Below, piece by piece: positions 25,895-38,683 of a stretch of 64,000 bases of DNA. The number at the start of each line of letters is the position of its first letter. Position 1 is the first letter of the stretch. A program made the translations under genes and the position numbers. The notes under the pieces were generated by a model. That model was not told where the DNA came from. It ran no database searches and saw only the letters and a program-made list of their open reading frames with translations. Source of the DNA: an uncultured Lachnospiraceae bacterium (lineage in GTDB: Bacteria > Bacillota > Clostridia > Lachnospirales > Lachnospiraceae); the NCBI GenBank assembly GCA_947593975.1, contig CANQDW010000001.1, positions 22,313-86,312 on the forward strand, given 5' to 3'.

Positions 25895-26063
25895 TTTATA
25901 ACAAGGGATTTTAAATTATGTATAGCTCCCCGGCATAAGACACGTTTGCACTTGGTTCGCCGCGCAGCGGTGCATAAAATAGCAAAGTACGCTATTTAAG
26001 CACCGGCGGGCTCATACAGTCTTATGTCGGGGAGCTATACTTACTTAAATCTGCTGTTATAAA
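25895..26063. repeat. Long stem-loop element B (conserved-core palindrome family), 3' of trpA
   Basis: Inner arms GTATAGCTCCCCGGCATAAGAC / GTCTTATGTCGGGGAGCTATAC. Outer flanks TTTATAACA...TGTTATAAA extend the pairing. Core TTCGCCGCGCAGCGGTGCATAAAATAGC...GCTATTTAAGCACCGGCGGGCTC. Confidence 0.88.
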
Positions 26064-26083: not shown

Positions 26084-27067
26084 CTACCCGGATATCTTTT
26101 CCGCAAGTTTATCATTAAGTATTTCAAGCAGGGATTGCCTGTCTTCATCAGGTACACCTATAGCGCAAATGGCTTCTTCGGCACTTAACTTTAATGATTT
26201 CATAATATTTAATATATCGTCTATCCGCGTTTCCTGCTCTACCTTTTCACAAAGCACTTCACCAAGATTACTCATTGAATTTGCCTCCTTACTCATCGTT
26301 TCTGACATCTGAATATCAAAGTCTTTTTCCAATATGTTTTTCTTCGCTTTTGGCTCCATATCTGCTGACAGCAGTACATTTAACAGACGCAGGATACGGT
26401 TATCTTCTGTCTCGTCTGCTAAGCCAAGCCTTATCATAAGTATCGTAAGAAGATCGTAATTATTTTCCTTTTCCGTAACGTTCCCTACGACCTGTTCCTC
26501 GGACATTCTGTATCTTGTGATAGTATTTGCCTTTTTAGCGGCTGCATCCATCTGTATCCATATAGAATATACCTTGCGTATCTTTTCATAGTGACTTTTT
26601 ACAAAAACCGTATTCTTCTGCGCCGATATCATACGACTCACATAATATATAGCCCTTTTTATAATAGGGTAAGTTACTTTACGACTTTTTTGCGCCTCAA
26701 TGTTTATAATAAGCTGTACAGGTTCTTTCATACCGGGCACAACGGCAGAAAATCGTATATCATAATATATGCTGCCTTCCATAACCGAGGTATCTTCTAC
26801 ATTCATTCCGCTAATAACACTATCATTATAATCTGAATCCTCCTGATAATCAAGCTCGTCCTGATCAACTGCTATTGAAGATATCTTTGGTTCTCCCTCT
26901 ATGCATTCATTCATAATCTGCGAAATAGTGAAACATTTAAATTCATTTACACATTCTCTAAGTATCCATGCAAGAATTATTTTTTCAGACAGAAGCCGCT
27001 TCACACAGGCATCATACTGAGCTTCTTTACTTGTAGTATCTATCATTTTTGATATTGTATTCTTCAA
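26084..27067 (-). CDS. Rpn / PD-(D/E)XK nuclease-family transposase-like protein
   Basis: YYDIRFSAVVPGMKEPVQLIINIEAQKSRKVTYPIIKRAIYYVSRMISAQ (D...ExQ nuclease core). Confidence 0.8.
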   Translation of the reverse strand: MKNTISKMIDTTSKEAQYDACVKRLLSEKIILAWILRECVNEFKCFTISQIMNECIEGEPKISSIAVDQDELDYQEDSDYNDSVISGMNVEDTSVMEGSIYYDIRFSAVVPGMKEPVQLIINIEAQKSRKVTYPIIKRAIYYVSRMISAQKNTVFVKSHYEKIRKVYSIWIQMDAAAKKANTITRYRMSEEQVVGNVTEKENNYDLLTILMIRLGLADETEDNRILRLLNVLLSADMEPKAKKNILEKDFDIQMSETMSKEANSMSNLGEVLCEKVEQETRIDDILNIMKSLKLSAEEAICAIGVPDEDRQSLLEILNDKLAEKISG

Positions 27068-27310: not shown

Positions 27311-28513
27311 CTAAAAATCCGTCGTTAGTTCTCCCGTTTCCATATCCACGATAGCAAAGTGCTCATATTCCTTGGACAATCCCAAATCTTCATTTTCCTT
27401 TCTTTTATCAAATAAAAAGGCGTATACCGGTCTTGCCTCAACTGCCTTTCCGGGGGAGCTGATATAATCGTTGGGCGCCGGACCAATTGTTGAATATATC
27501 ACATATAAAGGAATTATTTTTTCAATCTTTAGTTTATTAAAATCTGCCAGTTTTTTGTTTACAAGTTTTACCGCACTTTCAAAATCAACTATTTTTTGAA
27601 TGTTTTGCGCCGAGTCAAGTTTGATGGTTCCCTGTCCGTTTGAAAAAAATGTTATGTTATCCTGAGTATCATAGCTGATATTTACATCGCATCCGGCGAT
27701 TTCTGTTTTATCATCATCACCATAACTCGAACTTATATGGTTATTGAGTCTGATTCCTTTATATTCAAGCTCTGCGCTTATTGTCAACACATAGCTTTCT
27801 TTTTTATCCTGAGGATACAGGTATGTTTTGGTGAGCGCGTCGGCTGCATGGTACGTTAACTGCCCTGCCGGCATTTTTTCGGCAAGCCATTTTTCAGCTT
27901 TACGGCACATCTTTTTTAGGGCTGCGGAGCCGTCGTTGAGCTTGACGTTTACTTTGGATATATCATCGGTATCAATATCATATTCATCATTTATTGCCGC
28001 CTGCATTTCGGCGTCTTCATCATCGCCAATATCTAAGACAATAGAATCATATGTCACGCCCGCATAATATGAGATAAACCCATTCTCGCTTATATTGAAC
28101 CCCTTTTTTTCCTTTTCGCTGTCATAATTTTCACAGGCGCCAAGCATACCGACATCAGACTTTCCCATAAAAGTATCTTTGTTTATTCCAAACAATTGCA
28201 GATACCTATCCTTATCCGAAAGAAAATCCTTTTCATATGACATTTGCAGCAGACAGACATCTTCTACTTTGGAAAAATCAACCTTATCGGGCAGCTCTAT
28301 ATTTCCCGTGTCAATACTTATATCAGAAAGACCGGCGTTTTTTAGTTCCGCGGGCTCGCAGTAAGTAATATCTATCTTCTCCGTAATCTGTTTATTTTTT
28401 CCGTAATCCTTCGTTCTTTCGATAACTTCTTCGGGAGTCTTACGGCATCCGCACAGGATCCCGCATGAAAATATACAAATTAAAAAAACTAATAGCTTCA
28501 TTTTAAAATGCAT
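27311..28513 (-). CDS. Lipoprotein of unknown function (paralog 1)
   Basis: Lipobox FSCGILCGCRKTPEE; closely similar to 33304..34509 along its length. Confidence 0.75.
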   Translation of the reverse strand: MHFKMKLLVFLICIFSCGILCGCRKTPEEVIERTKDYGKNKQITEKIDITYCEPAELKNAGLSDISIDTGNIELPDKVDFSKVEDVCLLQMSYEKDFLSDKDRYLQLFGINKDTFMGKSDVGMLGACENYDSEKEKKGFNISENGFISYYAGVTYDSIVLDIGDDEDAEMQAAINDEYDIDTDDISKVNVKLNDGSAALKKMCRKAEKWLAEKMPAGQLTYHAADALTKTYLYPQDKKESYVLTISAELEYKGIRLNNHISSSYGDDDKTEIAGCDVNISYDTQDNITFFSNGQGTIKLDSAQNIQKIVDFESAVKLVNKKLADFNKLKIEKIIPLYVIYSTIGPAPNDYISSPGKAVEARPVYAFLFDKRKENEDLGLSKEYEHFAIVDMETGELTTDF

Positions 28514-28559
28514 AAAAATTCCTCCTATAAATGCTCTTTAAATCCACTGTTTACTAATA

Positions 28560-28595
28560 TAATAATATATTACTATCCGTACTGTATATTGTCAA
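28560..28595 (-). promoter_or_regulatory. Promoter with operator-like palindrome, lipoprotein paralog 1
   Basis: Minus-strand TTGACA (28590-28595), 17-nt spacer, TAATAT (28567-28572). TAATAATATATTACTA (28560-28575) covers the -10. Confidence 0.55.
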
Positions 28596-28643
28596 GTACT
28601 ATTTTTGTTACATTACCTGTTTGTCACAACAAGCCATATATAA

Positions 28644-28702
28644 ACTCCCCGCCATAAGATACATGCACGTTTGGTTCGCCATATAATCTTATGACAGGGA
28701 GC
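28644..28702. repeat. Core-deleted relative (D) of stem-loop element B
   Basis: ACTCCCCGCCATAAGAT ... ATCTTATGACAGGGAGC arms; interior retains CACGTTTGGTTCGCC as in B. Confidence 0.7.
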
Positions 28703-28753
28703 CCTATCGGCTTAAGCCGTCATATTTATTAAATTACTTGCCTGCATAAAATA

Positions 28754-29761
28754 TTATTGCTGTTTTTTATAAATAAAATATCTTTTTCCGCTATGCTCAT
28801 AATTGTCAACTGCCACAAAAAAATTACCGTTATCTAAAACCTTAAAATACTCCAACATCTTTTCCTGTCCGTATGCGGGATTAAATACTCCATCACTGCT
28901 TCCGTTATAGATCAGTTCAAATACCCCGCCGTCTTTTGTATCGCATCTGTATACTCCGTTCCTATTACAATAATAGATGCAGCTTCCGTTGTAATCAACC
29001 GCATTGAAGGGGTATTTATATTCAACGCCATTTAAATTAATTAAATGACCCATTACAGACGTCTCGCCTTCCGGAAGATTATATGACGAAGTTTTCTTCC
29101 CATTAAGATCGTACTCTTTAATTGTGCTGCCGTAATCATAGAAATACAATTTACCGCTGTCAAACTCGTAACTGCCGCCGGTTTTCAGTTTCTTATCGGA
29201 TATAACTTTCTTTTTCTTAAGATCATAACACTGAAGATAATTATATTCTTTATCCTTTTTGGTCGTAACATTTAAAACATAGTACATCTTCCTGCCTTTT
29301 ATCGTAACATCTTCTATGTTCGTATCTTTTATTTTTTGCGGATACTTTTTATCGATCTTTATAGGATACGACCCTTTTACTTTACCGTTTTGGTTCCTTA
29401 CCCGGATAACGGTCTTATTGTTTCCATGTTCAACATACGTATATACATTATTGTTTTCAAACTTAAAGGCATATGTTTTGTCATTCTTACATACAAACTC
29501 TTTTTGGTCTGCTTTTTCATCTTCCGATGATATAGTATAAGTAATTACCTTGCTGCAGGTCTTATCGTATTTATCTGAATAATGATCATCGTCATTCTCA
29601 AGCACAATAAGATCGCTCCCATAAGAATAATACTGTTCATGGCATGTAAACGCATACAGCTGTTCTTTTGGTTCATACTCCGCAGCCTCAGCCGTTTTTA
29701 AAGTTCCTGCGCACATAAAGCTCATTAAAAGTATTGAAATAACTAAATTTTTCTTTTTCAT
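28754..29761 (-). CDS. Secreted propeller-like protein of unknown function (DUF5050-like), paralog 1
   Basis: Signal peptide MKKKNLVISILLMSFMCAGTLKTAEAAE; repeated segments such as YEFDSGKLYFYDYGSTIKEYDLNGKKTSSYNLPEGE; shares layout with 34750..35730. Confidence 0.55.
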   Translation of the reverse strand: MKKKNLVISILLMSFMCAGTLKTAEAAEYEPKEQLYAFTCHEQYYSYGSDLIVLENDDDHYSDKYDKTCSKVITYTISSEDEKADQKEFVCKNDKTYAFKFENNNVYTYVEHGNNKTVIRVRNQNGKVKGSYPIKIDKKYPQKIKDTNIEDVTIKGRKMYYVLNVTTKKDKEYNYLQCYDLKKKKVISDKKLKTGGSYEFDSGKLYFYDYGSTIKEYDLNGKKTSSYNLPEGETSVMGHLINLNGVEYKYPFNAVDYNGSCIYYCNRNGVYRCDTKDGGVFELIYNGSSDGVFNPAYGQEKMLEYFKVLDNGNFFVAVDNYEHSGKRYFIYKKQQ

Positions 29762-29782
29762 AAACTCACACCTTCTTTATCC

Positions 29783-30847
29783 TTATTCCGCTTTTTCATC
29801 AGGCATTGCCGTACCGGATAATTCTATATGCCGTAAAGAATGAAGCATACTTGTATCCAGATCTTCTAAAGGCGCTTTAATATAAATCTTTGTAAGTTTT
29901 TTATTATGGCTCAGATCTATATTTTTAACCGACGCTTCTATCCAGATTTCCTTCAGCTCTGTATTTTTACTAAGATCTATCTTTTCAACCGGCGCGTTTA
30001 TATAAAGATATTTCAACTTTTTATTTTTACTAAGATCCAGATTTTTGACCGGCGCTGCTATCTCTAAGTTTTTTAATTCCGTATTGCTGCTGACGTCAAT
30101 ATTTTTAACCGGCGCCGATATCGAAAGCTCTTTAAGATTTTTATTTTTCCTTAAATCTATGTCCTTCAGCTTTTCTGAATAAATAGAAAAACTTTTCACA
30201 TTATCATTAGCGGCTATATCAAATTTTTTAACCTGCCCCACAACATGTACATAGCTCAGTTTTGGATTTTTGGATATATCAATATTTCGGTCGCAATCCA
30301 ACTCTTTCAGTTTATTCAGATTCCCAATATCAGCGTTTTCTACATTACGCAATGTCAGCTGTTTTATTTTTTTATTCTTGCTTATATCAATATTTTTTAT
30401 AACGCCTTTAGTAGTGCGCACCTCAAGGTTCTCAATATTGGGCGCTTTTTCAAAACTGAGCTTATTGATCCCGGAACGACAGTTCAGCGTAAAAGTTTTT
30501 AACTTATTAAAATCTCCAACCTTCAGATTTTTAAAGCTTTTACCTTCAAGATTAATATCTTTAAGCCCTGTCAGATATTCCAATCCTTTACAATTTATTT
30601 CCCGGTTGCTTTCCCATTCATCTATCTCTATCTCAAAGTGTTTTAATCCACTTATTTCATTCGGAGACAGATGGTTATCCCCGTTTTTGTCGTAACGTTC
30701 ACAAGTATCTAATATACTCTTTGAAAAATGTTTTCTGTTGAGCAAAACATCTGCTGCCCTCGCAGGCTTTAACTGCCCAAACATACTAACCCCCATTCCA
30801 AATACAGTCAATGCAAATGCTGCTGCAATCCTCTGTTTCTTTTTCAT
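29783..30847 (-). CDS. Secreted LRR-like protein with EF-hand/dockerin-like motif and 20-residue repeats
   Basis: Signal peptide; DKNGDNHLSPNE EF-hand loop; APVKNLDLSKNKKLKYLYIN / APVEKIDLSKNTELKEIWIE repeats. Confidence 0.75.
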   Translation of the reverse strand: MKKKQRIAAAFALTVFGMGVSMFGQLKPARAADVLLNRKHFSKSILDTCERYDKNGDNHLSPNEISGLKHFEIEIDEWESNREINCKGLEYLTGLKDINLEGKSFKNLKVGDFNKLKTFTLNCRSGINKLSFEKAPNIENLEVRTTKGVIKNIDISKNKKIKQLTLRNVENADIGNLNKLKELDCDRNIDISKNPKLSYVHVVGQVKKFDIAANDNVKSFSIYSEKLKDIDLRKNKNLKELSISAPVKNIDVSSNTELKNLEIAAPVKNLDLSKNKKLKYLYINAPVEKIDLSKNTELKEIWIEASVKNIDLSHNKKLTKIYIKAPLEDLDTSMLHSLRHIELSGTAMPDEKAE

Positions 30848-30904
30848 GATTAATCTCCCCCTACTGGTTTTTAATATAATTTATTTTTTTCAATCATATA
30901 TTAA

Positions 30905-30953
30905 CAGATATATCCATATCATGTGTGTTATTATTTTGCAAATATCATGTCAA
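30905..30953 (-). promoter_or_regulatory. 49-bp conserved upstream block, copy 1
   Basis: Reverse complement TTGACATGATATTTGCAAAATAATAACACACATGATATGGATATATCTG; conserved at two other loci. Confidence 0.7.
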
Positions 30954-30988
30954 TATTATGACTATTTTTCTAAAAATATGATATAAAT

Positions 30989-31032
30989 ATGGCAGCTTAA
31001 GCAGGATTACCATAATTCTGCCCAAACTGCCA
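30989..31032. repeat. Hairpin HP45 copy 2
   Basis: ATGGCAGCTTAAGCAGGATTACCATAATTCTGCCCAAACTGCCA. Confidence 0.75.
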
Positions 31033-31081
31033 CGTATATTGATATTGTATTACTATAATCTATGCTTTTTCTGCTGCCTTA

Positions 31082-31705
31082 TCAGACGATCCTCCCGCCA
31101 TCTATCTCATAAGTACGGTCGCACAGATACGAAATATCATTTTCATTATGCGATACCAAAAGTATCGTCTTGCCCCTGTCTTTTTCATCCATAAGGATTT
31201 CCCTGATCTTGCCCGCCATTTTCTTATCAAGGCCGTTAAACGGTTCGTCAAGTATAAGTATGTCCGGGTTTTCCATAAGCGCCTGCGCGATACCGAGACG
31301 CTGCCTCATTCCGAGCGAATATTTTTTCACGCTCTTTTTGCTGTACGGGTCAAGCTCCACAAGCTTCATGTAATTGATTATCTCTTCTTTACCTATGACT
31401 TTATTGATTCCCGCAAGCACCTTAAGGTTCTCGTATCCGCTGAAATACGGGACAAATCCCGGATTCTCGATTATAAATCCGCACTTTTTCGGAAATTCCG
31501 TATCTTTTCCTATCCTTTTTCCGGATACGAGTATCTCTCCGGTAAACGACGTGTTAAATCCGCATATGCATTTCATCAGCATCGTCTTTCCGGAGCCGTT
31601 GCCGCCCGTAAGCCCCACGGTCTCGCCTTTTTTTACTTCTATTGATACATTGTCCAGTATCTTATTCTTCTTTATCGTAAGAGATACATCCTTTACGCTT
31701 ATCAT
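31082..31705 (-). CDS. ABC transporter ATP-binding protein
   Basis: GLTGGNGSGKTMLMKCI Walker A; YSLGMRQRLGIAQAL signature; ILILDEPFNGLD Walker B. Confidence 0.93.
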   Translation of the reverse strand: MISVKDVSLTIKKNKILDNVSIEVKKGETVGLTGGNGSGKTMLMKCICGFNTSFTGEILVSGKRIGKDTEFPKKCGFIIENPGFVPYFSGYENLKVLAGINKVIGKEEIINYMKLVELDPYSKKSVKKYSLGMRQRLGIAQALMENPDILILDEPFNGLDKKMAGKIREILMDEKDRGKTILLVSHNENDISYLCDRTYEIDGGRIV

Positions 31706-32571
31706 ATTATGTCGCCCCCTATCATATCTAAGTTTACTCTCTTCGCTTTTCTGTATATGACCGCCGCAAATGCCGCTTCAGCCGCTATAAATATAATAAG
31801 CGATGCCCACGGCGGAAATATATACGCCCTGAAATAAGGACTGTAATGCAGGTACAGTATCGAATGGCTTATCGGAAACAGCCACTCGCCCATATTCTCT
31901 ATCGCTATAAGCCCGCAGCCTGCCGCAACCTGTATCGCAGTTATGACAAAAAACAGCAGTTTGCGCAAATACAAGCTTCCTATAAAAAACATCATCGCGC
32001 AGAACAGTATGCCCAAAAGCAGCAGTCCCGACGAATGGAAGAAAGCCTTAAAAGGCGTCATCTGGGAATACAGATTAGGCGGAACGATCCCTCTTGTGTT
32101 TAAACCCGATATTCCGCTGTACAATTCGTCATGGTCGGTTATGACAATGCTCCAGCCGTTATTTATAAACGACGCCGCCGCCGTCTGGACCACAACCCCC
32201 GCTATAATGATAATCCAGTACGTGAGCCCGCTTATAAACAGGAACGCAAGCTCGCCTATGATCCAGTTTTTCCTTCCCATGCGGCTTATATAAAACAGCA
32301 TGTTGTCATCCACGGTCGGAAACGACGAAATGAGGATTATAAAAACCATAGTCATCAAAAGCACGCCGAGCCATGAATTGAATATCCCTATGCACGGTTC
32401 AAGTATGTTTATCGGCATATCCATTTCCTCCGCCGCTTTCATAAGCGGTATCACCACCCACTCCCGCATCGGTATGAGTATGACCGGTATGAGTATCATT
32501 TTGGGCGTGAACAGAAACTTTACATACTCGCTCCGTACAACAGTCAGTATATTTTTAATATTAACTTTCAT
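31702..32571 (-). CDS. ABC-2-type transporter permease
   Basis: Several hydrophobic segments; 4-bp overlaps with the ATPase gene and with the upstream permease. Confidence 0.65.
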   Translation of the reverse strand: MKVNIKNILTVVRSEYVKFLFTPKMILIPVILIPMREWVVIPLMKAAEEMDMPINILEPCIGIFNSWLGVLLMTMVFIILISSFPTVDDNMLFYISRMGRKNWIIGELAFLFISGLTYWIIIIAGVVVQTAAASFINNGWSIVITDHDELYSGISGLNTRGIVPPNLYSQMTPFKAFFHSSGLLLLGILFCAMMFFIGSLYLRKLLFFVITAIQVAAGCGLIAIENMGEWLFPISHSILYLHYSPYFRAYIFPPWASLIIFIAAEAAFAAVIYRKAKRVNLDMIGGDII

Positions 32572-33275
32572 ACTCTCTCACCCCTGAAACGCCACATTAC
32601 TGAGTACAGCGCAAGAAACATAATGCCGCCCGCCGCAGGATATATGAAATTTACGCTTACAAAACACTCTCTCAGCATATAGCTTATTATGAATACCATA
32701 CTTAGCGAAAAATACAGGTTATTATATATAAGTATGATAAATGACGCAAGCAGCGACATCACGCCGCCGTACAGCGATATGTAAAGTATGTTATTTCCCA
32801 GGCGCAGGATAAGCTCAGTCAGAGTCTTATCTTCATAACCGATGATCTCCTTGGTTGGATTTATGCCAAAGAAGCAGCTTATTACTGCCGTATATAACAG
32901 GACCCCTATACATGCCGCCGCTGCTCCGCTTAGCGCTGAATAGATGTACCTTGAATACAGATACCTGTATTTTCCCATGCGCCCCCATACGTTAACATAG
33001 AACCTGCTCTTTATCTCCTCATAGATATATGATGCCGACGGGGCGGACACCACAACCGGCATAAGCATATACAGCCATCCATGGTAACATGCGCCAAAGG
33101 CGCTTTCAATATCCGAATCACCAAGTTTCTGCCTTGGAAGAAAAAGTATCGCTTCTATAACCGAGCATTCGCTGTCATTGATTATAAACAGCCCGCTAAG
33201 CAGACATATAATCGCTATTGCTGCAATGCATATAATATAATAAAACAATTTTTTTCTGACTTTCATATATCTCAC
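32568..33275 (-). CDS. Membrane protein, probable second ABC permease
   Basis: Multi-TM protein, 4-bp overlap with 31702..32571. Confidence 0.6.
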   Translation of the reverse strand: MRYMKVRKKLFYYIICIAAIAIICLLSGLFIINDSECSVIEAILFLPRQKLGDSDIESAFGACYHGWLYMLMPVVVSAPSASYIYEEIKSRFYVNVWGRMGKYRYLYSRYIYSALSGAAAACIGVLLYTAVISCFFGINPTKEIIGYEDKTLTELILRLGNNILYISLYGGVMSLLASFIILIYNNLYFSLSMVFIISYMLRECFVSVNFIYPAAGGIMFLALYSVMWRFRGERV

Positions 33276-33303
33276 CCCGGCATCTGATTACAACCGTTTA
33301 TTA

Positions 33304-34509
33304 TTACTTATTAGAATCTTCAAAATCCGTTGTAAGTTCTCCTGTTTCCATATCCACAATAATAAAATGCTCATATTCCTTGGATAATCCCAGATCTTCA
33401 TTTTCTTTCTTTTTATCAATCAAAAACGCATATACCGGTTTTGCTTCGACTTCTTTTCCGGGACTGCTCATATATTCCTTATTTTCGAAATTTTGTGAGG
33501 AATATATTACATACAGCGGAATTATCTTATCAATCTTAATTTCATTAAAATCTGCCATTGTTTTATTTACAATTTTTACAGCGCTTTTGAAGTCCACTAT
33601 TTTTTCAAGTTTTTCTTCCGAATCAACTTTGATTTTTCCATCTCCATTTGAATAGAAAGATATATTGTCCGGGGAATCATAATTGATATTTACATAGTAT
33701 CCTGTAATAACTTCATCCGTATCGTCCGAAGAAAAAAATAAATGGTCATTAAGTCTGATTCCTTTATATTCAAGCTCTGCGCATAATGATAAAACTGTCT
33801 TTTCTTTTTTGCCTTCAGGATATTTAACCGCTCTGGTAAGAGCATCGGATATATGATATTCCAATTGTGGTATCGGCATATTTACCTCAAGCCATTGTTC
33901 GGCTCCTTTGCACATATTAAAAAGATCTGTTTCATCATTTTCAAATGCTATTTTTACCCCGGACAAATCATCATTATCAATATCATACTCATCTTTTGGT
34001 ATAACCTGTAGTTCTTTTCCGCTGTCATTACTTCCTTCAACATAATCATATGTCACTCCTGCATAATATGACATAAAGCCATTCTCGCTTATATTAAAAC
34101 CCTTTTTCGCCTTATTGCTATCATAATTTTCACTTGTTCCAAAAACACCGTCATAACTCTCTGTAAAAGTATCTTTATTTGTTCCAAATAACTGCATATA
34201 CTTATCTTTATCCGCAAGAAAATCCTTTTCATATGACATATGCAGCCGACATACATCCTCGACTCCGGAAAAATCAACCTTATCCGGAAGCTTGATATTG
34301 CCCGTATCAATATCGATATCCGCAATGCTTGCATTTTTAAGTTCATCAGGTTTACAGTAATTCAGTTCAACATCTTCCGTAATCTGCTCATTTTCCCCAT
34401 AATCTTTCATTCTGTCCGTAACTTCCTCAGGGGTCTTACGGCATCCGCATAAGACTCCGCACGAAAATATACAAATTAAAAAAACTAATAGCTTCATTTT
34501 AAAATGCAT
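33304..34509 (-). CDS. Lipoprotein of unknown function (paralog 2)
   Basis: MHFKMKLLVFLICIFSCGVLCGCRKTPEEV; paralog of 27311..28513. Confidence 0.75.
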   Translation of the reverse strand: MHFKMKLLVFLICIFSCGVLCGCRKTPEEVTDRMKDYGENEQITEDVELNYCKPDELKNASIADIDIDTGNIKLPDKVDFSGVEDVCRLHMSYEKDFLADKDKYMQLFGTNKDTFTESYDGVFGTSENYDSNKAKKGFNISENGFMSYYAGVTYDYVEGSNDSGKELQVIPKDEYDIDNDDLSGVKIAFENDETDLFNMCKGAEQWLEVNMPIPQLEYHISDALTRAVKYPEGKKEKTVLSLCAELEYKGIRLNDHLFFSSDDTDEVITGYYVNINYDSPDNISFYSNGDGKIKVDSEEKLEKIVDFKSAVKIVNKTMADFNEIKIDKIIPLYVIYSSQNFENKEYMSSPGKEVEAKPVYAFLIDKKKENEDLGLSKEYEHFIIVDMETGELTTDFEDSNK

Positions 34510-34555
34510 AAAAATCCCTCCTATGAATGCTCTTTAAATTCACTGTTTACTAATA

Positions 34556-34591
34556 TAGTAATATATTACTATACGTACTATATATTGTCAA
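34556..34591 (-). promoter_or_regulatory. Promoter with operator-like palindrome, lipoprotein paralog 2
   Basis: Minus-strand TTGACA (34586-34591), 17-nt spacer, TAATAT (34563-34568). Perfect 16-bp palindrome TAGTAATATATTACTA (34556-34571). Confidence 0.6.
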
Positions 34592-34639
34592 GTACTGATT
34601 TTATCACATTACTTGTTTATCGTAAAAAGCCACATATAA

Positions 34640-34697
34640 ACTCCCTGCCATAAGATACATGTGCTATTGGTCTTCCGCATAATCTTATGACAGGGAG
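34640..34697. repeat. Core-deleted relative (E) of stem-loop element B
   Basis: ACTCCCTGCCATAAGAT ... ATCTTATGACAGGGAG arms; same position relative to paralog genes as D. Confidence 0.7.
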
Positions 34698-34749
34698 CTG
34701 TATCGGCTTAAGCCGCTATATATTTATATTGTATTACTATATATCCTTT

Positions 34750-35730
34750 CTACTGACCCACATACTCTACTATTTTGCTTGGCATGTTCATTTCTATATT
34801 ATCCTTTTCCATGAACATAACATAGAATTTATCCTCTCCGACAGCGCATATATCATATACCGCGCACTGCTGAAAATAAGCATCATCTTTTGCATCATAG
34901 TATACTTCAAAGCCTTGATCAGCATTAATATTGCATCTGTATACGCCATTGCTATTGATAAAATATATATAATCACCTGACACGCTTATATCATCAAAAC
35001 TGCTGTTGGACGTATTTCCTCCTTCAGGCAATTTATACGTTGACTGTTTTTTACCTGTAAGGGAATATACATTAACTTCATCTTTCGTCTGAAGGTAAAT
35101 CCTATTACCATATATTTTCATTTCATACATAAAAGCATCCGGAGTTTTTAAAATTGTATCATATTTTACTTTGCCGGTTTTCATATTGATACATCTTATA
35201 TGGGCGTATTTATTGTTTTTTATATATACGTTATACAGCTTATTTCCTTTTACTAACAGATCCTGCATACGCATGTTGTTTCTGTATTTCTCTTTTTTGG
35301 TAAATTTATCAATGACTTCTGATACTTTTTTGCCTTTCTTATTGTAGACCGTATACCTTAACTTTCCTTTACCTTTTGCAGCGCTTACTACTAACGTCTG
35401 CTTATCTTTTTTGCTGCTTTTGACATAATTAACCCAATCATCGCTGCAGGCAATGTTTTGAGTGTTATTCGCCTTATTATCGATATAAGAGTATTTACGT
35501 ATCTCCATATGATTTTTTCCATTCTTATCATCCATCTCTTCTATCTGATAATTACATACTCCTCCGGCATCCTCAGCCGACATCGGCATATTATACTCAT
35601 TTAGCGGCATCTGTATCTCCAAGTGCGTAAAACTTTTTGCAGCCGCGGGTATATATGTCCCTAACGTACCCATTCCCGCCATAACTAATGTACAGCATGT
35701 TAAACTTAATGATTTGATAAATTTTTTCAT
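34750..35730 (-). CDS. Secreted propeller-like protein of unknown function, paralog 2
   Basis: Signal peptide; YEMKIYGNRIYLQTKDEVNVYSLTGKKQSTYKLPEGG parallels YEFDSGKLYFYDYGSTIKEYDLNGKKTSSYNLPEGE of paralog 1. Confidence 0.55.
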   Translation of the reverse strand: MKKFIKSLSLTCCTLVMAGMGTLGTYIPAAAKSFTHLEIQMPLNEYNMPMSAEDAGGVCNYQIEEMDDKNGKNHMEIRKYSYIDNKANNTQNIACSDDWVNYVKSSKKDKQTLVVSAAKGKGKLRYTVYNKKGKKVSEVIDKFTKKEKYRNNMRMQDLLVKGNKLYNVYIKNNKYAHIRCINMKTGKVKYDTILKTPDAFMYEMKIYGNRIYLQTKDEVNVYSLTGKKQSTYKLPEGGNTSNSSFDDISVSGDYIYFINSNGVYRCNINADQGFEVYYDAKDDAYFQQCAVYDICAVGEDKFYVMFMEKDNIEMNMPSKIVEYVGQ

Positions 35731-35787
35731 GATTAATCTCCCCCTACTGGTTTTTAATATAATTTATTTTTTTCAATCATATATTAA

Positions 35788-35836
35788 CAGATATATCCAT
35801 ATCATGTGTGTTATTACTTTGTAAATATTATGTCAA
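35788..35836 (-). promoter_or_regulatory. 49-bp conserved upstream block, copy 2
   Basis: Reverse complement TTGACATAATATTTACAAAGTAATAACACACATGATATGGATATATCTG. Confidence 0.7.
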
Positions 35837-35870
35837 TATTATGACTGTTTTTCTAAAAATATGATATAAA

Positions 35871-35915
35871 TATGGCAGCTTAAGCAGGATTACCGTAATT
35901 CTGCCAAAACTGCCA
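35871..35915. repeat. Hairpin HP45 copy 3
   Basis: ATGGCAGCTTAAGCAGGATTACCGTAATTCTGCCAAAACTGCCA. Confidence 0.75.
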
Positions 35916-35941
35916 CATATTTTTAGTTTGGATACATGCTG

Positions 35942-38634: not shown

Positions 38635-38683
38635 CAGATATATCCATATCATATGTGTCATTACCTTGCAAATATTGTGTCAA
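38635..38683 (-). promoter_or_regulatory. 49-bp conserved upstream block, copy 3
   Basis: Reverse complement TTGACACAATATTTGCAAGGTAATGACACATATGATATGGATATATCTG. Confidence 0.65.

Follow-up and report, generated by a model that had tools for sequence, protein, structure and literature searches.

Does a lipoprotein gene that occurs twice in one stretch of a clostridial genome, each time behind a gene for a propeller-like secreted protein and only once in front of ATP-binding cassette (ABC) transporter genes, belong to a duplicated propeller-lipoprotein module or to an operon with the transporter? The stretch, hereafter the window, is 64,000 nucleotides of DNA from an uncultured Lachnospiraceae bacterium (contig CANQDW010000001.1; G000:C1:22313-86312 in our numbering), whose genome comprises 2.16 Mb in 108 contigs; genome-wide counts refer to searches over all contigs of this source genome. 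An initial annotation had described the order propeller, intergenic element, lipoprotein as a duplicated module coupled to the transporter genes. The link between lipoprotein and transporter held up. Judged by gene neighbourhoods across genomes, the real conserved unit is lipoprotein-permease-permease-ATPase, and the propeller is a passenger outside it.

The lipoprotein-transporter operon and its relatives

Every open reading frame (ORF) named in the initial annotation is present on the minus strand, and the second lipoprotein (lip2) is indeed followed co-directionally by two permease genes and an ATPase gene (33275-31082):

33304-34509, minus strand: lip2, lipoprotein, first gene of the four-gene operon; by profile comparison a remote DUF6034 relative; lipobox LCGC, conserved C23
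32568-33275, minus strand: perm1, membrane permease with about 5-6 transmembrane (TM) segments, 28 nt after lip2; gene order conserved in relatives
31702-32571, minus strand: perm2, membrane permease with about 6 TM segments, overlapping perm1 by 4 nt
31082-31705, minus strand: ABC ATPase with the E-loop GFIIENPGF (Pfam ABC_tran, 2.8e-30)
27311-28513, minus strand: lip1, lipoprotein copy without transporter genes; 66% identical to lip2 over 400 aa (full length) with the lipobox cysteine conserved, and 75% identical to the copy in genome G003

The genus-mates carry the order lipoprotein-perm1-perm2-ATPase without a propeller gene. Profile A4 of perm2 has matches in 68 of 299 Lachnospiraceae genomes, and a class-wide sample of 391 genomes gave 27 with a match, the two counts resting on different profiles and cut-offs. 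By manual count, 42 of the 47 loci ascertained through perm2 have a lipoprotein-like gene as direct neighbour of the permeases (the exceptions are L052, L096, L100, L101 and L048, the last of which lies at a contig edge), and the ends of the lipoprotein and permease genes usually overlap or nearly touch; conversely, permease genes are present in 11 of the 12 testable loci ascertained through the lipoprotein. The initial annotation would have been contradicted by homologs standing consistently apart from ABC genes, and linkage is what these counts show. The unit is present in many Lachnospiraceae genera and in several other clostridial families. This lipoprotein-plus-pump operon is widespread in clostridia and has apparently never been studied; a literature search, whose coverage left out most subscription journals, returned no paper relevant to the gene combination and none on DUF6034.

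The pump itself has two permeases, each mostly with 5-7 hydrophobic segments in relatives. At one locus of G003 (L015:9820-13076, contig C16), perm2 comes straight after two different tandem lipoproteins and leaves no space for perm1, an arrangement suggesting that some pumps may use one permease. The named NCBIfam model nearest to the window ATPase is TIGR03740, the lantibiotic-protection ATPase. Glu stands at the Q-loop position in 45 of 46 family ATPases, a set that includes three duplicate rows, and the exception, NEPGF, has its E one residue later; unrelated ABC ATPases in these loci mostly show Q at that position. Going by the title of a 2010 paper of Okuda et al., cited in PMC7038271, the ABC systems of lantibiotic immunity reportedly share the E-loop as a conserved motif.

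Neither lip1 nor lip2 has a direct Pfam match, the gathering cut-off of DUF6034 (PF19499) not being reached, and no DUF6034 match was found anywhere in the source genome. In other genera, the lipoproteins at the corresponding operon position are DUF6034 proteins (up to 233 bits), and DUF6034 genes often lie on the same contig, a few kb from perm2 relatives. Aligning the lip profile to operon-borne DUF6034 with hhalign gave a probability of 96.9 and an E of 1.3e-10 over the C-terminal half, and it is on this comparison that we take the window lipoprotein to be a remote DUF6034 relative. The AlphaFold2 model of lip2 (predicted local distance difference test, pLDDT, 85; predicted template modelling score, pTM, 0.81) has its closest fold in 5coz (Foldseek against the PDB, E 2.8e-7), an uncharacterised protein. 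In another genus, six consecutive DUF6034-type lipoprotein matches form an array (G089:C36:158215-166943), which suggests lipoprotein-only expansion there.

The source genome holds more than the two copies first described. A third propeller-lipoprotein pair, on contig C8, has a lipoprotein 73% identical to lip2 and a propeller 69% identical to propeller 1, and no transporter genes. Contig C22 (L014:6588-9107) holds a fourth lipoprotein, a distant one, accompanied by both permeases and an ATPase reduced to a 5' remnant; in the genus-mate G001 (L019) the ATPase is intact at the place matching the C22 operon. The tree groups lip1 with the G003 lipoprotein as its ortholog. Because this partner is also located after trpBA, lip1 has kept an old position and is not a fresh copy of lip2. 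Pairwise dN/dS is about 0.2 among lip1, lip2, the C8 copy and the G003 copy, which argues that the stand-alone lipoprotein copies are maintained under purifying selection. The copies also share a promoter element:

34554-34591, minus strand: lip2 promoter; -35 TTGACA (34591-34586), 17 nt, -10 TAATAT (34568-34563)
34554-34573, minus strand: palindromic putative operator of lip2, TATAGTAATATATTACTATA, spanning the -10; 0 expected by chance in the window
28558-28577, minus strand: putative operator of lip1, with 2 mismatches to that of lip2

Genome-wide, TATAGTAATATATTACTATA occurs with 0 mismatches at the lip2 promoter, with 1 at that of the C8 copy and with 2 at that of lip1; one further site has 3 mismatches, the level of the reversed-pattern control. 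Because no other site in the genome has fewer than 3 mismatches, the three lipoproteins look like a private, co-regulated regulon. PadR was considered as its regulator and set aside: PadR genes adjoin L016, L017, L022 and L059, but TATAGTAATATATTACTATA was not found upstream there.

Immediately 5' of the lipoprotein, approximately half of the loci in relatives carry a small gene whose product (about 107-175 aa) has a recognisable signal peptide in most cases. One family of these proteins has a mature start resembling W.L.Y..GAPSS; its model, in which pLDDT is about 90 or higher across the mature protein, is all-beta and probably a beta-sandwich. At L106:3326-14190 the whole unit of small gene, lipoprotein, perm1, perm2 and ATPase occurs twice in tandem, and the proteins of the two copies start almost identically, which offers a clean comparison inside one genome. 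Of the 32 perm2 loci in a sample of 100 genomes, 6 have an AgrB gene no more than 6 kb away (one of the six genes is broken), where about 0.1 would be expected (P about 1e-9); a kinase and a LytTR regulator accompany AgrB in several relatives, e.g. L044, L055 and L058. In the source genome, whose assembly is 94.5% complete, searches gave no match to the small protein and no AgrB, and thus no Agr locus in the sense of AgrB with an adjacent kinase and LytTR regulator. Several assignments of the small protein were rejected. Membership of the lactococcin 972 family had no Pfam or NCBIfam match and no significant PDB fold match behind it; immunoglobulin-like matches of the profile were weak, involved many near-identical antibody chains and were judged chance or compositional. 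A viral fold search with the small protein gave generic low-identity matches only. In the family searches with the window proteins, weak matches to GH114, HipA, TumE, cas_csx17 and the like stayed below cut-off and were disregarded.

Possible functions of the operon

The parsimonious reading is that of an immunity or resistance device: lip2, perm1, perm2 and the ATPase would act in the manner of LanI plus LanFEG, as an operon orphaned in the source genome, a reading to which we would give a probability of roughly 0.5. The genes from 34509 to 31082 form one operon, which encodes a lipoprotein of the cell surface together with an ABC transporter of two permeases and an E-loop, LanF-like ATPase. 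A secreted protein acting on membrane or wall would be captured at the cell surface by the lipoprotein and then cleared from the membrane by the pump, in parallel to the action of LanI and LanFEG on lantibiotics. The probable cognate molecule in relatives would be the Sec-secreted product of the small gene immediately 5' of the lipoprotein, a gene that in some loci has Agr quorum-sensing genes beside it. The source genome has lost, or never had, the small gene and Agr, keeping one complete operon, two extra lipoproteins (lip1 and the C8 copy) and one decayed operon (C22). Since the operon is kept there without the small gene and Agr, it could serve as orphan immunity or resistance against neighbours, and the extra co-regulated lipoproteins may widen or strengthen capture. 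The gene order and its conservation, the E-loop, the sharing of promoter and palindrome and the purifying selection are observations, whereas we infer every biochemical step of this scheme, as well as the pairing of small protein and lipoprotein. Of the three roles first suggested for the locus (envelope stress, peptide resistance or secretion), peptide resistance is the best in view of the E-loop ATPase, while the label of exporter found no support because the small upstream protein in relatives has its own signal peptide.

A number of findings weigh against this reading. No search relates the lipoprotein to LanI, and the solved structure closest to it is that of a protein of unknown function. 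The ATPase reaches 157 bits with TIGR03740, far under the curated cut-off of 309.75; the window permeases have no LanE or LanG NCBIfam match at E 1, nor do 24 perm2 relatives at E 0.05. The small gene is absent from about half of the operons; we know of no antibacterial activity for its product, whose model has no PDB match at E 0.001. All 4 strong matches of the small-protein profile in 100 family genomes sit in lipoprotein-ABC operons, a count that is partly circular because the profile was built from these loci.

A more far-reaching proposal, which we put forward tentatively and with some doubt, is that the relatives represent an undescribed and widespread clostridial antibacterial system, in which a small Sec-secreted beta-sandwich protein, sometimes under Agr control, would be countered by self-immunity through a YycI-fold lipoprotein and an E-loop pump, with the orphan lipoproteins expanded and co-regulated in the genome studied here. 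If the small protein is antibacterial, it would represent a common and so far unnamed mode of competition among gut clostridia. The proposal would also provide a ready-made immunity test, lipoprotein plus pump against a neighbour's secreted protein, and a role for DUF6034 lipoproteins and for the solved, uncharacterised structure 5coz.

The main rival to the immunity device is a general resistance pump of the CprABC type, directed against foreign cell-wall-active peptides, with no cognate protein, the lipoprotein as an accessory and the small protein as an independent cargo. Many operons, including all of those in the source genome, lack the small gene, as such a pump would predict, and CprABC of C. 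difficile has the same build of two permeases and an ATPase with a lipoprotein adjacent (PMC5786555). However, no peptide-sensing two-component system adjoins the window operon, and the small gene and Agr are repeatedly linked to the unit in relatives, so that we regard this explanation as unlikely though well worth keeping in mind. Less probable again is a role in surface assembly or maturation, where the lipoprotein would be a chaperone or anchor and the transporter would supply or remove a lipid or wall precursor for displaying the small protein. It would account for the fact that the gene adjoining the secreted protein is that of the lipoprotein and not of the transporter, and for the extra lipoprotein copies that stand without a transporter; the E-loop ATPase nevertheless points to the immunity type, and the source genome retains the module without the small gene. 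We consider it improbable still further that the operon is a signalling device in which a YycI-like lipoprotein senses a ligand or the state of the wall and controls a kinase or the transporter. YycI (2o3o) is the second structural match of the lip2 model in Foldseek, with a weak E of 0.049, one relative weakly matches the Pfam profile of YycI (E 0.0048) and two weakly match PepSY, and Agr kinases lie near some relatives; yet the YycI similarity is weak, and no kinase is consistently linked to the loci. Least of all do we credit the literal model of the initial annotation, a propeller and lipoprotein duplicated as one functional unit: the pair does occur three times in the source genome, but both window pairs have a terminator-like hairpin and then a new promoter between their two genes, no propeller gene fetched from other genomes of the genus has a lipoprotein beside it, and the window propellers (about 30% identical) have diverged far more than the lipoproteins.

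Duplicated pieces around the operon

The remaining features of the duplicated region are as follows:

34750-35730, minus strand: propeller-like secreted protein 2, passenger; about 30% identical to propeller 1
28754-29761, minus strand: propeller-like secreted protein 1, passenger; 69% identical to the C8 copy
34624-34707, minus strand: hairpin resembling an intrinsic terminator between propeller 2 and lip2; fold of -41.3 kcal/mol, z -5.2, T run at the end
29783-30847, minus strand: secreted leucine-rich repeat (LRR) protein with an EF-hand-like loop and a duplicated leader 5'
30840-31050, minus strand: duplicated leader (promoter region) of the LRR gene, 211 nt, 94% identical to 35723-35933
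35723-35933, minus strand: duplicated leader 5' of propeller 2, partner of 30840-31050

As first described, the two propeller-lipoprotein pairs are homologous through their intergenic DNA (28514-28753 and 34510-34749), and in both copies a terminator-like hairpin is followed by a promoter. It is the fold, z score and terminal T run that make the hairpin of the second copy look like an intrinsic terminator; its arms are AGCTCCCTGTCATAAGAT ... ATCTTATGGCAGGGAG, and it is probably the intergenic element called D/E in the initial annotation. The window holds 6 hairpin half-sites, where chance would give 0.05. A dispersed hairpin repeat, similar to repetitive extragenic palindromic (REP) elements, is found at 25924-26036, 28643-28703 and 34639-34699. 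The first of these sites separates trpA from a PD-(D/E)XK transposase-family ORF (26084-27067), and the other two lie between propeller and lipoprotein in the window pairs; the repeat is absent from the C8 pair.

The propeller name is unproven, the Pfam and PDB profile searches having given very weak matches such as SGL and Kelch, and the fold is not established. Of 10 genomes of the genus, 8 carry propeller relatives, which form an expanded family of their own; leaving aside the three pairs of the source genome, the fetched members have no lipoprotein gene in their flanks of about 1.5 kb. Neighbourhood conservation, then, extends to lipoprotein and ABC genes and not to propeller and lipoprotein. 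Propeller 1 and lip1 are preceded by an LRR gene, as had been noted, with an internalin-like LRR match at E 4.6e-12; the EF-hand ascribed to the same protein is weak (E 0.095). That the 211-nt leader heads different genes, the LRR gene and propeller 2, indicates that the pieces were shuffled and did not arise by one clean block duplication. We regard the duplicated pair as an ordinary case of shuffling within gene families, and the wider operon as the part that merits follow-up. A leader motif, AACACACATGATATGGATATATCTG, lies at 30905-30929, 35788-35812 and 38635-38659, 5' of the LRR, propeller 2 and BspA-like secreted-protein genes, and a similar form lies 5' of the C8 propeller; these sites represent a possible second regulon.

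Comparison with known systems

YycI, a membrane-anchored protein that regulates a sensor kinase, stands outside any ABC operon; the lip2 model bears a weak fold resemblance to it, whereas lip2 itself is a member of such an operon. Loci of the lactococcin 972 type encode a small, Sec-secreted, beta-rich bacteriocin with adjacent ABC genes, and in this they resemble the loci with a small gene described here; the permease type differs, and the small protein has no sequence match or significant structural match to them in the libraries searched. DUF6034 lipoproteins occupy the same operon position beside related permeases and share the profile of the C-terminal half, although the window lipoproteins differ in giving no direct Pfam match. 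The fold of the lip2 model is that of EUBREC_2869 from Eubacterium rectale (5coz), which is listed as an uncharacterised protein.

The two closest parallels are resistance and immunity pumps. CprABC of Clostridioides difficile consists of one ATPase and two different six-TM permeases, with an adjacent lipoprotein and no biosynthesis genes (PMC5786555). The window operon has the same ATPase and two-permease build, a lipoprotein and no biosynthesis genes; it differs in that its lipoprotein is the first gene of the operon and in that Cpr has a dedicated two-component system, while no such kinase lies near the window operon. In lantibiotic self-immunity (PMC5786555), LanI and LanFEG, as in NisI/NisFEG and SpaI/SpaFEG, likewise combine a lipoprotein, two permeases of about 6 TM segments and one E-loop ATPase, and their genes adjoin a secreted product, as do those of relatives of the window operon. 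Operons of the window type nevertheless come without lantibiotic synthesis genes, their candidate product is larger, Sec-secreted and beta-rich, their order is lipoprotein-permease-permease-ATPase, and by model the permeases and lipoprotein match no Lan family while the ATPase falls under its family cut-off. Because the permeases are without a LanE or LanG match and the ATPase stands at half the cut-off, we do not file the operon as a member of LanFEG and describe it instead as LanFEG-like in its anatomy.

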